Assembly (NCBI RefSeq): GCF_009687865.1
Contig: NZ_BLAE01000028.1
Coordinates: 62,001-126,000 of the forward strand
Direction of reading: 5' to 3'
From: Acrocarpospora macrocephala
GTDB taxonomy: Bacteria; Actinomycetota; Actinomycetes; Streptosporangiales; Streptosporangiaceae
Length of the DNA: 64,000 bases
This document shows positions 25,215 through 62,537 of this stretch, one piece after another. The notes beneath the pieces are model-generated. The model was not told the DNA's origin and did no database searches. It was given only the letters and a program-made list of their open reading frames with translations. The position numbers and the translations under genes are program-made. Numbering within the stretch: position 1 is the first letter of the stretch; every line of letters starts with the position of its first letter.

Positions 25215-27197
25215 TTAGCGGCCGTGACGGCTGCCCGTGTGGCCGCCGGGGCGGCCGCCCTGGCGGAAGCCGCCGCCCGTGCGCGGGCGGAAGCCGCCGC
25301 GCTGTTCGGCCGGGCGCGCCTCACCGTTCCAGCCGCCGCGCGAGTCGGGCCGGCCTTCGCCGTTGTAGCCGCCCCGCGTCTCGGTACGGGGACGCTCCCC
25401 GCCCTGGTAGGACCCACGGTTGTCGCCGTTGCCCCGGTATCCGCCACGCTCGGCGCCCCGGTCCTCGAACCGGCGCCCGCCGTCCCGGTCACCCGTGAAC
25501 GAACGCCCGCGCCCGGCGGGCCGGTCGCCGTTGAACGGCCGGTTGTTGCCGTACGGCCGGTCGCCGGCCGGACGATCCTGACGGTCGTAAGCGGGCCGGT
25601 CATACGCCGGGCGATCGTTGCCGAATCCACGGCGATCGTCGCGGTCGTACGAACGCCCGTTGGGACGGTCGTTAGGCCGGTCACTGGAACGGTCGGCCGG
25701 GCGGCCGTTCTCGCGCGGACGGTCGCCGCCGAACGTGCGCGGCCCGCGGTCGTCGCGGAACTGCCCGCGCGGGGCTCCGCCGCCATTGTCACGACTGTCC
25801 CGGCGCCGTGCCTCGCCGTCCTCCGCCGGGCGGCGGTTGAAGTCCTCGGACCGGTTGCGGTCGGCGTACCGGCGCGGGCGCCGCTCGCCGTCGCCGAAGC
25901 CGCCGCGCGGGCCGCGCTCCTTGGTGGCCCGCAGCGGCTTGCGCACGTCGGGCTCCCAGACCGGGATGGACTCGCCGGAGGGCTGCTGCGCGCCCGCGAT
26001 CTCGGCCAGCACCGGGTCCCCGGGCACGACCTTGTGCCGGGACGGGTTGATCCCGGCCCGCCGCGCCATCGCCTCGGTGGTCCTGCGCTCGTTCGGCATA
26101 ACCAGCGTCACCACCGAGCCCCGCTCCCCGGCGCGAGCCGTACGGCCGCCGCGGTGCAGGTAGCTCTTGTGGTCCGCCGGCGGGTCGATGTGCAGCACCA
26201 GGGTCACGTCGTCGACGTGGATGCCCCGGGCCGCGACGTCCGTACAGACCAGGACCTGGACGTTGCCCTCACGGAACTCGCCGAGGATCCGGGTGCGCTG
26301 GTTCTGGCGCTTGCCGCCGTGCAGGCCGCCGGCCTTGACGCCGACCCGGGCGAGCTGCTTGACCACGCGGTCCACGCCGTGCTGGGTGCGGACGAACATG
26401 ATCGTGCGGCCCTCGCGGGCGGCGATCTCGGCGGTGACGTCGGGCTTGTCGTGGAAGGTGACCTGGAACATGTGGTGTTCCATCAGCTCGACCGAGGAGG
26501 TGGCCGGGGAGAGCGAGTGGGTCACCGGGTTGGTGAGGAAACGCCGGACGAGCTTGTCGACGTCGCCGTCGAGGGTGGCCGAGAACAGCAGGCGCTGGCC
26601 GTCGGCGGGGGTCTCGTTCAGGATGGCGCTGACGACGGGGAAGAAGCCGAGGTCGCACATGTGGTCGGCCTCGTCCAGGATGCTCACCTGGACGTCCTCA
26701 AGGGAGCACTCGCCCTGTTCCATCAGGTCGGTCAACCGGCCGGGGGTGGCCACGATGACCTCGACGCCGCGGCGCAGCGCCTCGACCTGCTTGCCCATGG
26801 ACATGCCGCCGACCACGGTCTTCATCCGCAGGCTGAGGCCGCGGCCGAGGGGCTCCAAAGCGTCGGCGACCTGGAGGGCCAGCTCGCGGGTGGGCACCAG
26901 GATGATCGCCCGGGGACGGCGCGGCTGCGCCTTCTCACCAGCGATCCTGGCCATCATGGGCAGGCCGAAAGCGAGGGTTTTGCCAGAGCCGGTCTGGCCG
27001 CGTCCGAGCACGTCGTGCCCGGCGAGGATGTCGGGGATGGCCGCTCGCTGGATCGGGAACGGCGCGTTGATGCCGGCGCGGGCCAGGCCCGTGACGAGCG
27101 GGCGGGGCAATCCGAGCAGGGTGAACTCCGACACCGCCGGGGTCTCGGGGGCGAGAACGTCGGCGGTGACGGGCATAGCGGGGTCAAGCGTGGTCAC
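25215..27197 (-). CDS. DEAD-box ATP-dependent RNA helicase
   Basis: A 660-residue RNA helicase. The core (about 25-405) shows the Q-motif (FPIQRAAIP), motif I GQTGSGKT, PTRELALQ, GG, TPGR, DEAD in ILDEADHMCDLGF, SAT, and in domain 2 TDVAARGIHVDDV and HRGGRTARAG. Beyond residue 430 comes a 230-residue disordered tail rich in Arg, Gly, Asp and Asn with many DRP, RGG and GGY units, expected to bind RNA and perhaps drive condensation. The GTG at 27,197 is chosen because GGAAAGG lies 9 nt upstream; ATG at 27,215 is possible. It is preceded by a long structured leader and followed by a strong terminator. Probably cold- or stress-induced, judging from family behaviour. Confidence 0.93.
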   Translation of the reverse strand: MTTLDPAMPVTADVLAPETPAVSEFTLLGLPRPLVTGLARAGINAPFPIQRAAIPDILAGHDVLGRGQTGSGKTLAFGLPMMARIAGEKAQPRRPRAIILVPTRELALQVADALEPLGRGLSLRMKTVVGGMSMGKQVEALRRGVEVIVATPGRLTDLMEQGECSLEDVQVSILDEADHMCDLGFFPVVSAILNETPADGQRLLFSATLDGDVDKLVRRFLTNPVTHSLSPATSSVELMEHHMFQVTFHDKPDVTAEIAAREGRTIMFVRTQHGVDRVVKQLARVGVKAGGLHGGKRQNQRTRILGEFREGNVQVLVCTDVAARGIHVDDVTLVLHIDPPADHKSYLHRGGRTARAGERGSVVTLVMPNERRTTEAMARRAGINPSRHKVVPGDPVLAEIAGAQQPSGESIPVWEPDVRKPLRATKERGPRGGFGDGERRPRRYADRNRSEDFNRRPAEDGEARRRDSRDNGGGAPRGQFRDDRGPRTFGGDRPRENGRPADRSSDRPNDRPNGRSYDRDDRRGFGNDRPAYDRPAYDRQDRPAGDRPYGNNRPFNGDRPAGRGRSFTGDRDGGRRFEDRGAERGGYRGNGDNRGSYQGGERPRTETRGGYNGEGRPDSRGGWNGEARPAEQRGGFRPRTGGGFRQGGRPGGHTGSRHGR

Positions 27198-27271
27198 GAA
27201 GTCGTGCCTTTCCATAGAAGATGACGTGCCGCAGCACGGGCGTGGGCGCGTCACTTCTGCGTAAGGACGAG

Positions 27272-27500
27272 CCAGGTGGTCCGGACGGCCTCAGGCCGTT
27301 CCGGACGAGGCACCCCTTTCAGGTGCCGGACGGTGCCGGTTCTGCGCACCGCCCCTGAGGCCGGGGATCCGTCCCCGGCCACGTCGCAGCCACGTCAGCG
27401 TGGCGCGAAATCTGCTCAGCAGTGTGCAGGTGCCGCGGTTCACAGTCGCGGCGAATAGTCACTGGTCGTGACCGACCCAGCGGCTTGGAAAAGCCGGAGT
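27272..27500 (-). promoter_or_regulatory. Highly structured leader of the DEAD-box helicase gene
   Basis: The gap of 324 bp between sufT and the helicase holds a dense series of hairpins on the helicase strand. From 5' to 3': CCGCG/CGCGG; CCACG-type; GGCCGGGG with CCCCGGCC; CGGTGC with GCACCG; GGCACC with GGTGCC; and a 12-bp stem GTCCGGACGGCC with GGCCGTTCCGGAC (one bulge). A possible -10 (TAAGAT) lies near 27,512. Such a leader suggests control by RNA folding, as in other cold-shock helicase genes. Not assigned to a known RNA family. Confidence 0.5.
27319..27462 (-). CDS. Possible 47-codon upstream ORF in the helicase leader
   Basis: A GTG-started frame of 47 codons (beginning MTIRRDCEPRHLH, ending EPAPSGT) runs through the hairpin region and stops just before the GGCACC/GGTGCC and GTCCGG hairpins. 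Codon third positions are only moderately GC-rich, so coding is uncertain, but the position suits a leader peptide acting on the downstream hairpins. No clear Shine-Dalgarno site. Confidence 0.25.
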   Translation of the reverse strand: MTIRRDCEPRHLHTAEQISRHADVAATWPGTDPRPQGRCAEPAPSGT

Positions 27501-27539
27501 CCGATCTATCTTACCCCGGATTTCCGGGCGTCATGACCA

Positions 27540-27908
27540 TCACACGTTGAAGCCCAGCATGCGCAGCTGATCGCGACCCTCATCGGTGATCTTGTCGGGT
27601 CCCCACGGCGGCAGCCACACCCAGTTGATGACCACGCTGGAGACCATGTCGGCCAGCGCCGAGTTGGCCTGGTCCTCGATGACGTCGGTGAGCGGGCAGG
27701 CCGCGCTGGTGAGCGTCATGTCGATGGTGGCGACCGGCCGCTCGCCCTCGCCGGCGGCGTCCAGGTTGAGGCCGTAGATGAGGCCCAGGTCGACGACGTT
27801 GATGCCCAGCTCGGGGTCGACGACGTCCTTCAGCGCCTCCATGACGTCGTCCAGAGCCAGATCGCCGTCATATGCCGCCACAGTCGGCGTCTCAGTGGGC
27901 TTGCTCAT
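27540..27908 (-). CDS. sufT: SufT-like (DUF59/MIP18) Fe-S assembly factor
   Basis: A 122-residue protein dominated by the DUF59 fold: DVMEALKDVVDPELGINVVDLGLIY, the segment TLTSAACPL with the conserved Thr-x-x-x-Cys-Pro motif, and a WxxPWGPD close. Members mature Fe-S proteins as carrier or accessory factors. Last gene of the suf operon. Its ATG overlaps the sufU stop (ATGA), with GAGGAG 6 nt upstream. Confidence 0.93.
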   Translation of the reverse strand: MSKPTETPTVAAYDGDLALDDVMEALKDVVDPELGINVVDLGLIYGLNLDAAGEGERPVATIDMTLTSAACPLTDVIEDQANSALADMVSSVVINWVWLPPWGPDKITDEGRDQLRMLGFNV

Positions 27909-28339
27909 CAGGAACTCCTCACCACAGCGTCCTTGTATGCCATCCAGGCCAGCAGCGCGCATTTCACCCGCGCGGGGAACTTGGCCACCCCGGCGAACGC
28001 GACGGCGTCACCGAGCACCTCTTCGTCGGCCTGGACCGTGCCCCGGCCCTGCATCAGCCGGGTGAACTCGTCGACCACCGCGAGCGAGTCCACGACCGTG
28101 GACCCGGCCGCCAGCTCGTGCAGCACCGACGCGGCGGCCTGGCTGATCGAGCAGCCCTGCCCTTCGTACGACACGTCGGCGACCTTGCCCGACTCCACCT
28201 TGACCCGCAGCGTGATCTCGTCGCCACAGGTCGGGTTCACGTGGTGAACCTCGGCGTCGTACGGCTCCCGCAGGCCACGCCCCTGCGGGTGCTTGTAATG
28301 CTCCAGGATCAACTCCTGGTACATCGATTCCGCGATCAT
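27908..28339 (-). CDS. sufU: SufU iron-sulfur cluster assembly protein
   Basis: A 143-residue SufU/IscU-like protein with its three zinc/cluster cysteines in NPTCGDE, GQGCSISQAAAS and ARVKCALLAW. It starts with the family motif MYQELILEHYKHP. In actinobacteria and firmicutes SufU accepts sulfur from SufS. The ATG at 28,339 overlaps the sufS stop; the longer upstream frame lies inside sufS and is discounted. Confidence 0.95.
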   Translation of the reverse strand: MIAESMYQELILEHYKHPQGRGLREPYDAEVHHVNPTCGDEITLRVKVESGKVADVSYEGQGCSISQAAASVLHELAAGSTVVDSLAVVDEFTRLMQGRGTVQADEEVLGDAVAFAGVAKFPARVKCALLAWMAYKDAVVRSS

Positions 28340-61101: not shown

Positions 61102-62537
61102 TTCGCGCGTTCTCCTTCGTGAAGCAATCGCCGCGGAGCCGTGAACCGGAGAACGGCCCACCAGATCAGGCCACTCGCGAACACCCCGGCCGCGACCAGC
61201 GCCGGTTTGTGATTCTCCTCGCGGCCGATCACCAGGACCAGTATCAGCACGGTCCACGCGCACGCGCCCAGCGCCGCGGCCAGATCGAAGCGCCCCAGCG
61301 AGAAGGCTCCCGGCAGGACGGGGAAGCGTGATCTGCGGAACAGGTAGGCCACGCTGATCACGCCGTACACGCCGACGGGGATGAGCACGGAGGCGACGAT
61401 GAGGTCGCTGAACGTGGTGAACCCGACGATGACCACGATCTCGATGAGCGTGGCGAGCATGATCGCGTTCGCGGGCGTGCCGGACGACTTCTGGACCCGG
61501 TGGAAGATCGAGCTGCCGGGGAAACGGTTGTCGCGGCTGATCGCCCAGATCAGTCGGCTGGCCACCATGGTCTGCAGCATGCTGTTGGCGAAGATCGCGA
61601 TCGCGACGAAGACGATGAAGGTGTTGCCCAGCACCGAACCGAGCCGATCCTGGGCGATGTGCCCGACCGGGGAGGCGGCCGCGCCGATGGCGGCCCAGTC
61701 GCCCTGCCCGGCCACGGTGATGCCGATGAGGAACAGCAGGCCCATGAGGGCCGCCGCGACCGACGCCCGGATGATGCCGAGCGGCACCGCGCGCTGCGGG
61801 TTCTGGGTCTCGTCCGCCAGCGCCGCGGCGGAGTCGAAGCCGGTGAAGGTGAAGGCGCCGAGCACGACCGTGCCGGCGAAGGGTCCGAACAGCGCCCAGT
61901 AGCCGGTCGCGTCCACCGGGGAGGTCGAGGTCAGGTTGTGCACGCCCTCGCCGCCTCCGGAGGCCAGCCCGACGGCGACGAGAACGATCCCGAAAGCGGC
62001 GACCGACACCAGTTCGGTCCACACCGCCAGGTTGTTCACGCGGACGGTCATCCTGGTCGAGGCGATCATGAGCGCGGCCTGCACGACCGTGATGCCGATG
62101 ACGACCAGGGTCAGCGCCGCCGTGTCCAGGGTCACCAGGAACATCTGGGCGACCGCGTTGGCGAGCACGACGTTCACGGCCACGGCGGTGATGAGGCCGT
62201 ACCCGAGGAAGGCCCAGCCGAGGATCCAGCCGAGCGAGGGGTTGGTGAGGCGGCTCATCCACTGGTAGGACAGGCCCGAGATGGGGATGCGCCCGGCGAG
62301 CGCCGCGATGACCAGCGCGATCAGCAGCTGGCCCGCGCAGACGATCGGCCAGGACCAGATGCCGCGCGGACCCGCGCCGTTGATGACGAGTCCGTAGGTT
62401 GCGAAAATGCCCGTTGACACGGAGATGAAGGAGAAGACGATCGCGAAACTGGAAAACGACTTCAGGACCCGCTTGAGCTCCGGCTGGTAGCCGAAGCCTG
62501 CGAGCACGCTGTCGTCCTGCTGCAGTGGCTGGCCCAT
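61098..62537 (-). CDS. APC-superfamily amino acid/amine permease
   Basis: A 479-residue transporter with 12 predicted helices. The APC motif is visible at the N-terminus: KRVLKSFSSFAIVFSFISVSTGIFATYG, with GPRGIWSWPIV next and the FTGFDSAAALADETQNPQRAVPLGI consensus (helix 6-7 region). It would import the substrate of the operon's kinase and dehydrogenase. The ATG at 62,537 has GGAGG upstream. Divergent from deoR across a region with an ATTGAA/TTCAAT palindrome. Confidence 0.87.
   Translation of the reverse strand: MGQPLQQDDSVLAGFGYQPELKRVLKSFSSFAIVFSFISVSTGIFATYGLVINGAGPRGIWSWPIVCAGQLLIALVIAALAGRIPISGLSYQWMSRLTNPSLGWILGWAFLGYGLITAVAVNVVLANAVAQMFLVTLDTAALTLVVIGITVVQAALMIASTRMTVRVNNLAVWTELVSVAAFGIVLVAVGLASGGGEGVHNLTSTSPVDATGYWALFGPFAGTVVLGAFTFTGFDSAAALADETQNPQRAVPLGIIRASVAAALMGLLFLIGITVAGQGDWAAIGAAASPVGHIAQDRLGSVLGNTFIVFVAIAIFANSMLQTMVASRLIWAISRDNRFPGSSIFHRVQKSSGTPANAIMLATLIEIVVIVGFTTFSDLIVASVLIPVGVYGVISVAYLFRRSRFPVLPGAFSLGRFDLAAALGACAWTVLILVLVIGREENHKPALVAAGVFASGLIWWAVLRFTAPRRLLHEGERAK

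Follow-up and report, generated by a model that had tools for sequence, protein, structure and literature searches.

What sets the amount of an RNA helicase in a bacterial cell is, to our knowledge, poorly known beyond a few species. A DEAD-box helicase gene of Acrocarpospora macrocephala raises this question in a specific form: what is the role of the GC-rich, strongly folding sequence directly upstream of its start codon? The gene lies within 64,000 nucleotides of contig NZ_BLAE01000028.1 (forward-strand positions 62,001 to 126,000), a stretch referred to as the window, whose first letter is position 1 of all coordinates given here. From the letters of this DNA, an earlier note had proposed a leader of at least five hairpins with an upstream open reading frame (uORF), in the form of an attenuator or a cold-responsive element. 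After comparison with related actinobacteria we consider it likely that the 3' part of a leader of ~300 nt, a length that derives from a predicted promoter, forms an H-type pseudoknot that covers the helicase ribosome-binding site (RBS) and acts as a translational switch, perhaps a feedback-controlled one. By opening and closing this knot, several actinobacterial families probably control how much helicase is made.

The helicase gene and its leader

Profile comparison places the helicase protein closest to the CshA/RhlE models, below the curated cut-off. The beginning of the open reading frame at 27254 and an ATG at 27215 were rejected as starts in favour of the GTG at 27197-27195, which is the one kept in relatives and lies nine bases past the Shine-Dalgarno (SD) sequence GGAAAGG (27213-27207). 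The leader occupies the minus strand between the helicase and a FeS-assembly gene (27540-27962) on its far side (Table 1). Soon after the latter gene, and immediately 5' of a candidate -10 box, the minus strand carries a palindrome, CCCGGAAATCCGGG (27515-27528), which could be the end of the upstream transcript. Of the 26 loci listed, 16 have a box similar to the -10-like TAAGAT outside coding sequence, 98-284 nt 5' of box 1; Nonomuraea hits fall in the upstream gene, two of the 26 listed loci have none, and no consensus sigma-70 promoter was found in the window leader. As a prediction only, the TAAGAT box would speak against a start site near the helicase gene.

The fold of the minus strand of 27179-27539 reaches -190.1 kcal/mol, whereas 100 dinucleotide shuffles average -150.2 (sd 5.5), which gives z -7.3; none of the shuffles is as good, and 27217-27430 by itself reaches z -5.8. 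As expected of near-palindromes, the plus strand of 27217-27539 likewise folds well (z -5.4). At least five GC-rich stems appear in the minus-strand minimum free energy (MFE) structure, which confirms the proposed hairpin array. As a signal the array stands in part: the stems beside the start codon matter, but conservation is confined to the last ~80 nt (27195-27273) and the stem 27279-27306. The order within the conserved 3' segment is box GGCUCGUC, anti-Shine-Dalgarno (anti-SD) arm, loop motif GACGYGCC, SD and GTG start.

Table 1. Features of the helicase gene and its leader (window coordinates; S1 and S2 are the two stems of the predicted pseudoknot)
Feature	Position	Strand	Remarks
DEAD-box RNA helicase CDS	25215..27197	-	GTG start; DEAD and Helicase_C domains; R/G/D-rich tail
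Small hairpin CACGA-CU-UCGUG	27195..27206	-	holds the GTG start codon 27197-27195
SD GGAAAGG	27207..27213	-	3' strand of S2; predicted to be sequestered
Extra helix, 3' arm CGUCAUCUUC	27217..27226	-	partner of 27249-27257
Loop motif GACGCGCC (consensus RCGYGCC)	27245..27252	-	3' strand of S1; near-invariant across groups; covariation
Extra helix, 5' arm GAAGUGACG	27249..27257	-	pairs with 27217-27226; overlaps S1; from the fold
Anti-SD arm CCUUACG	27260..27266	-	5' strand of S2; C27266 common to box 1
Box 1 GGCUCGUC	27266..27273	-	5' strand of S1; partner 27245-27252 with one Y.Y mismatch; 80/80 loci; covaries
P0 hairpin GUCCGGAACGGCCUGAGGCCGUCCGGAC	27279..27306	-	5 nt 5' of box 1; stem kept in relatives
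Hairpin GGCACC-U-GAAAGG-GGUGCC	27309..27327	-	clade-specific; loop repeats the SD sequence; 10/80 loci (Acrocarpospora, Herbidospora)
47-codon GTG frame (proposed uORF)	27319..27462	-	47 aa; judged not functional
-10-like TAAGAT, candidate leader promoter	27508..27513	-	240 nt 5' of the box; leader then ~300 nt

In the window, S1 is strong (-9.6 kcal/mol as a duplex) and S2 weak (-2.7 kcal/mol as a bare duplex), the latter because its arm reads CCUUACG, which is weaker than the CCUUUCG found in most other genera. Much of the local MFE comes from the extra helix GAAGUGACG/CGUCAUCUUC, in which a U-to-A change in Herbidospora is answered on the opposite arm (by eye). Since this helix overlaps S1, it would represent an alternative or remodelled state, and together with the weak S2 it suggests that the balance between leader states may differ in Acrocarpospora. 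The start codon hairpin has a different sequence, CGUCA-CU-UGACG, in the diverged group 2 described below (by eye).

Further upstream the leader holds elements of narrower distribution. The SD copy in the loop of the 27309-27327 hairpin sits 53-60 nt 5' of the box; possible roles are a ribosome decoy or standby site, or a rival for the anti-SD arm. A pair of hairpins, CCGCGACUGUGAACCGCGG and CUGCACACUGCU.AGCAG (27433-27451, minus strand) with the adjoining CUGCACACUGCUGAGCAG, is common to Acrocarpospora and Herbidospora, GACTGTGAACCGCGG of this pair being present in 10 of 80 loci; UGUG in one of the loops could pair with CACA of the next hairpin.

Distribution among actinobacteria

A search with the whole leader found matches in 15 of 60 genomes, its own included, and beyond the genus mostly the 3' end alone was matched. 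We then compared 80 named Streptosporangiaceae loci, the best 80 of 526 candidate helicase loci (two of them from one genome). In all 80, GCUCGUCCUUUCGCAGAAGUGACGYGCC or a close variant of it stands 5' of the helicase GTG, with GAAAGGCACGA and the start coming next; the cores comprise 56 distinct sequences. The query protein had been taken from the ATG at 27215, so one of the six search peptides overlapped the SD region and biased this collection. Two approaches are without that bias: a covariance model of the core (R1) and a protein search of 61 family genomes.

R1 matched 11 of 296 class genomes, all of one GTDB family, which is that of the window, and 106 of 250 genomes of this family, spanning 21 of 68 genera. 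In the window's own genome it found one place, the leader, and one 17-bit chance hit. Among 33 helicase leaders from family genomes with no R1 match, box and loop motif were present in 25: 19 of a batch of 20 (all but L167) and six of a batch of 13 (L212-L215, L223 and L224). In every leader of the first batch a hairpin directly ahead of the start covers the SD (by eye), and in 18 of the 20 at least five of six SD bases are paired (local fold, best site). The element is absent from six leaders of the second batch (L216, L218-L222), and L217 is too short to read.

These leaders reveal diverged versions of the element, such as CCUUCCUC-GAAACGCNGCC...GAGGAAGG in group 2, CCUCCCGAGACGUGCC...UCUCGGAAGG in group 3 and AACCUUCCGAGUCGCGCC...CUCGGAAGGUU in L174. 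Where the SD arm alters, the anti-SD arm alters with it, and the loop stays ACGYGCC. In group 2 (L172, L175-L184, L212, L223) strong conservation extends from a CTAGTACGCTG-like promoter box through the SD (GCGGTCAATTCGTGCTGCGCGCATCCGGCGCGCCGGGCCGC...), a longer stretch than the pseudoknot requires.

Outside the family, 26 class genomes gave a helicase match and 24 leaders were fetched, one of them masked and some short; four contain the element (G057, G059, G050 and G061). In the Streptomyces-like genome G057 it precedes three of the four helicase paralogues fetched, of five listed; the fourth, L187, has no pseudoknot. With G135 and G235 added, six GTDB families are covered (f1, f13, f20, f22, f23 and f39). 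Diverged versions thus precede DEAD-box helicase genes in five GTDB families besides that of the window, one of them probably Streptomycetaceae, and every strong match examined sits before such a gene. Genome G219 holds two helicase paralogues with two leader versions (L247 and L179), of group 2 type and Streptomyces type.

Helicase leaders with no pseudoknot show features of their own. Within the family, L218 and L220 share another conserved leader (GGCGCGCCGGUCGUA..., CCACGGACGUGG), similar pieces of which occur in L219, L221 and L222 (by eye). In other actinobacterial families, L193, L200, L202 and L203 have a common GAGGUCG word (by eye), which comes after a GC hairpin in L193 and L200 and possibly marks another conserved leader type.

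Two predicted crossing stems

The RNA order box, anti-SD, motif, SD is the same in 34 compared segments and in the Streptosporangiaceae cores. The helices box:motif and anti-SD:SD therefore cross, so that the predicted fold is an H-type pseudoknot, with two crossing stems and the SD included in one of them. In Streptosporangiaceae the box is directly continuous with the anti-SD arm; most other groups have intervening sequence, often a hairpin.

S1 consists of GGC-U-CGUC paired with GACG-Y-GCC. In a first set of 139 loci, grouped and reduced to 21 distinct rows, pairing across all eight positions holds in 143 of 168 cells, which three of 2000 shuffles equal. A six-position count that excludes B4 and B8 gives 125 of 126 paired cells for the discovery rows (20 of 5000 shuffles as good). 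The pairing survives a C-G to G-C exchange at B3-m6 (GGGUCGUC/GACGCCCC) in L138-L140, which are three genomes of one genus, as well as U-G at position 3.

Because S1 had been noticed after looking, a held-out test was needed. For this we built a model (R2) from the hairpins of 12 Streptomyces-type leaders only, with the box excluded, and obtained 31 matches in 21 of 197 class genomes. All 26 matches with E < 1e-7 have a DEAD-box helicase downstream; four of the five with weaker scores were retrieved, and none of these is followed by a helicase. The 17 strong matches outside the model form the held-out set (16 distinct rows). Six of them carry the loop variant AUGYGCC, and in five of these six the box has changed to GGNCCA, reading GGUCCAU, GGCCCAU or GGCCCAG. 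This is a G-C to A-U double change at B6-m3 (L261, L263, L271, L273 and L274). Over six positions, 92 of 96 held-out cells are paired (one of 5000 shuffles equal) and 205 of 210 in the pooled rows (none of 5000 as good); the shuffles ignore relatedness, so the independent events are fewer than the loci.

The stem has its irregularities. In L174, L258 (which needs a shift), L271 and L277 (U.C) at least one of the six positions is disrupted, and B8-m1 pairs in just 17 of 35 rows and three of the 16 held-out rows. More regular is the interruption at B4-m5, where 30 of 35 distinct rows keep a pyrimidine-pyrimidine mismatch; three others have G-C beside one or more bulged bases and two A.C or C.A. 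Several measures were less discriminating. RNAalifold reported no covarying pair in the first alignment, and double changes were lacking in a count restricted to Streptosporangiaceae, as the core hardly varies in this family; it was the more distant groups that supplied the support. Shuffled upstream sequence yields a full complement to the motif in 15-56 of 200 trials per locus, and the pattern GGCUCGU..ACGYGCC alone is not specific: nine of its 18 hits lack an adjoining helicase and a reversed control pattern is commoner. All nine of the 18 that have an SD hairpin have a helicase downstream. For the 12 Streptomyces-type hairpins, 88.9% of helix cells are paired (none of 500 shuffles as high) and one pair has double changes (three cells; 21 of 500 shuffles), and their covariation score is matched by 10 of 500 shuffles and exceeded by two of six slid controls.

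S2 links the anti-SD arm to the SD. Of 32 aligned leaders, 31 (all but L137) show base pairs between the SD and the 5' arm in the MFE structure, and both U-A and C-G are seen at SD columns 72 and 73 of this alignment. A leader's own 5' and SD arms pair better than swapped ones in 780 of 972 comparisons; for the window's own arms this holds in only 2 of 31, and the anti-SD arms of group 1 pair about equally well with SDs from different groups (mean -8.4, -8.0 and -8.5). In the local fold at least five of six SD bases are paired in 67 of the 80 helicase leaders, compared with 6 of 53 other SD-like sites that precede frames of at least 100 codons in the same loci; at most two of six are paired in 10 of the 80. 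S2 can also be seen in leaders without a clear box, L167 for example.

Hairpin P0 forms a perfect stem of at least 6 bp in 64 of 80 loci, compared with 28 of 400 mono-shuffled sequences. Its exchanges are compensated (GUACGGC/GCCGUAC, GCGCGGCC/GGCCGCGC and GCGUGACC/GGUCACGC), and this fold kept with different sequences suggests that P0 acts as RNA, in which case the transcription start would be upstream of it. Taken together, the comparisons support selection for an RNA structure that contains the SD and is associated with DEAD-box helicase genes. Alignment in related genera has thus upheld the broader idea of the earlier note, a conserved, covarying, structured leader placed to control the helicase.

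A possible link to cold

In the Streptomyces-type loci, each of the 26 strong R2 matches is preceded, at a distance of a few hundred bases, by a cold-shock-protein gene of the same orientation (25 called by regular expression; L253 read as its twin L186), and two of the encoded proteins match Pfam CSD. The conserved gene pair of cold-shock protein and RNA helicase is seen in L249-L265 and L270-L278, and also in L187, the paralogue with no pseudoknot. This gene order is circumstantial support for the cold-responsive leader proposed earlier, but the neighbour is absent from the window and from all 80 named Streptosporangiaceae loci; in that group a FeS-assembly gene, not a cold-shock gene, precedes the helicase. 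The leader folds persist at 10 C in silico, and SD sequestration alone should tighten, not loosen, in the cold.

Comparison with Rfam models led to a related observation. Rfam 15 gave no hit at gathering score in the window and no credible match, and the leader together with 20 related loci gave sub-threshold hits only. Among these, the cspA thermoregulator RF01766, the leader of an RNA-remodelling cold-shock gene, scored 20-28 bits (gathering 78) on the transcribed strand of three of the 20 loci; by their coordinates the hits overlap the upstream cold-shock-protein gene and not the pseudoknot, which explains them. Mimicry of an rRNA site was likewise considered and rejected: in a comparison of sequence only, none of seven leader pieces matched the rRNA operons of two genomes better than shuffles, and short words such as ACGUGCC and GGCUCGUC are common at chance level.

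How the switch might work

In the proposed mechanism, S1 would link the upstream box GGCUCGUC to the loop motif GACGYGCC and S2 the bases adjoining the box to the SD. The closed knot would place the SD out of reach of the 30S subunit and keep translation low; once open, helicase would be made. That closure represses translation we infer by analogy with the S4 and S15 pseudoknots, as described in PMC10931766. The helicase itself might be the sensor, a weak conjecture prompted by the strong matches preceding no other gene type and by paralogues sharing the element. Surplus helicase would then bind or stabilise the knot in a negative feedback, and its diversion to misfolded RNA, as might occur in the cold, would release the mRNA; this could also give cold induction. 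The feedback would be positive if the helicase were to unwind the knot itself. Taken further, the leaders may form a new cis-regulatory RNA family that senses helicase capacity, an extension we offer tentatively and with more doubt than belief. Here the DEAD-box helicases would bind the SD pseudoknot or act on it as a substrate, the pyrimidine mismatch would be the recognition point and the cold-shock protein a second remodeller in the circuit, and the free helicase pool would set the genes concerned, which lie at one place in this genome and at three in the Streptomyces-like G057.

A different sensor, on the whole unlikely, would be a small molecule, a ribosomal protein or a cold-shock protein that stabilises or opens the pseudoknot. 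The kept B4-m5 interruption resembles a recognition site, RBS pseudoknots read by S4 and S15 are known (PMC10931766), and the cold-shock protein becomes a candidate partner because its gene lies upstream in Streptomyces-type loci. Against this, the position of every strong match examined before a DEAD-box helicase gene points to helicase activity, and the cold-shock gene is no neighbour in Streptosporangiaceae. It is improbable that the SD hairpin is all there is, with S2 as a passive brake or RNase target giving constant low translation and the box:loop pairing incidental. Such a view gains from leaders like L167, where S2 persists beside an unclear box, from the frequency of chance complements to the motif and from the fact that no ligand or protein partner was identified; however, few parts of the leader are as conserved as box and loop motif, which co-change in held-out loci, and a near-invariant loop would be superfluous for a passive brake.

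A DNA operator, with box and motif as a palindrome bound by a transcription factor, appears very improbable: at the DNA level the 28-nt core forms an imperfect palindrome, yet the halves lie much further apart in other groups and still co-change, and P0 pairing is preserved with many different sequences. Least credible of all is an attenuator in which a ribosome stalls on the uORF. The GTG frame does exist and has 47 codons in three of five Acrocarpospora, but it is not conserved even within the genus, since one of the five has lost the stop (92 codons) and another has 25. In Herbidospora, six of which have the shared hairpin, none of five tested has a start codon of the frame before it, and this hairpin occurs in only 10 of 80 loci. 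The attenuator part of the earlier proposal also fails for lack of an intrinsic terminator, with no terminator-like site in 27150-27700, and translational control fits better because the conserved device includes the SD. The switch over the RBS, with its two crossing stems, therefore stays the preferred reading.

Relation to known systems and significance

Small H-type pseudoknots that hide the SD are known from the preQ1 and SAM-II riboswitches; compared with these, no ligand, aptamer core or metabolic gene was found here. The mRNAs of rpsO (S15) and of the alpha operon (S4) have pseudoknots at or near the RBS that serve autogenous translational control, also in mycobacterial rpsO, according to PMC10931766. 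The position is alike in our leader, whereas the gene encodes an RNA helicase and S2 has the SD itself as its 3' strand. Among helicases, CrhR of the cyanobacterium Synechocystis is likewise of the DEAD-box type and controls its own expression, partly post-transcriptionally (PMC3485376). Its abstract describes regulation via transcript and protein turnover and names no SD pseudoknot; CrhR shows that autoregulation by a helicase occurs in bacteria. A search of open-access papers listed no description of the leader. As a kind, SD-hiding pseudoknot leaders are known; the structure, gene and spread described here appear new.

The finding provides a compact pseudoknot, with no Rfam entry and backed by paired mutations, as a testable cis-element that defines the bases to mutate. 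Through it several helicase paralogues, beside cold-shock genes, can be approached together in apparently antibiotic-producing actinobacteria. If the helicase does read the pseudoknot, the leader would be a direct sensor of RNA-unwinding capacity.
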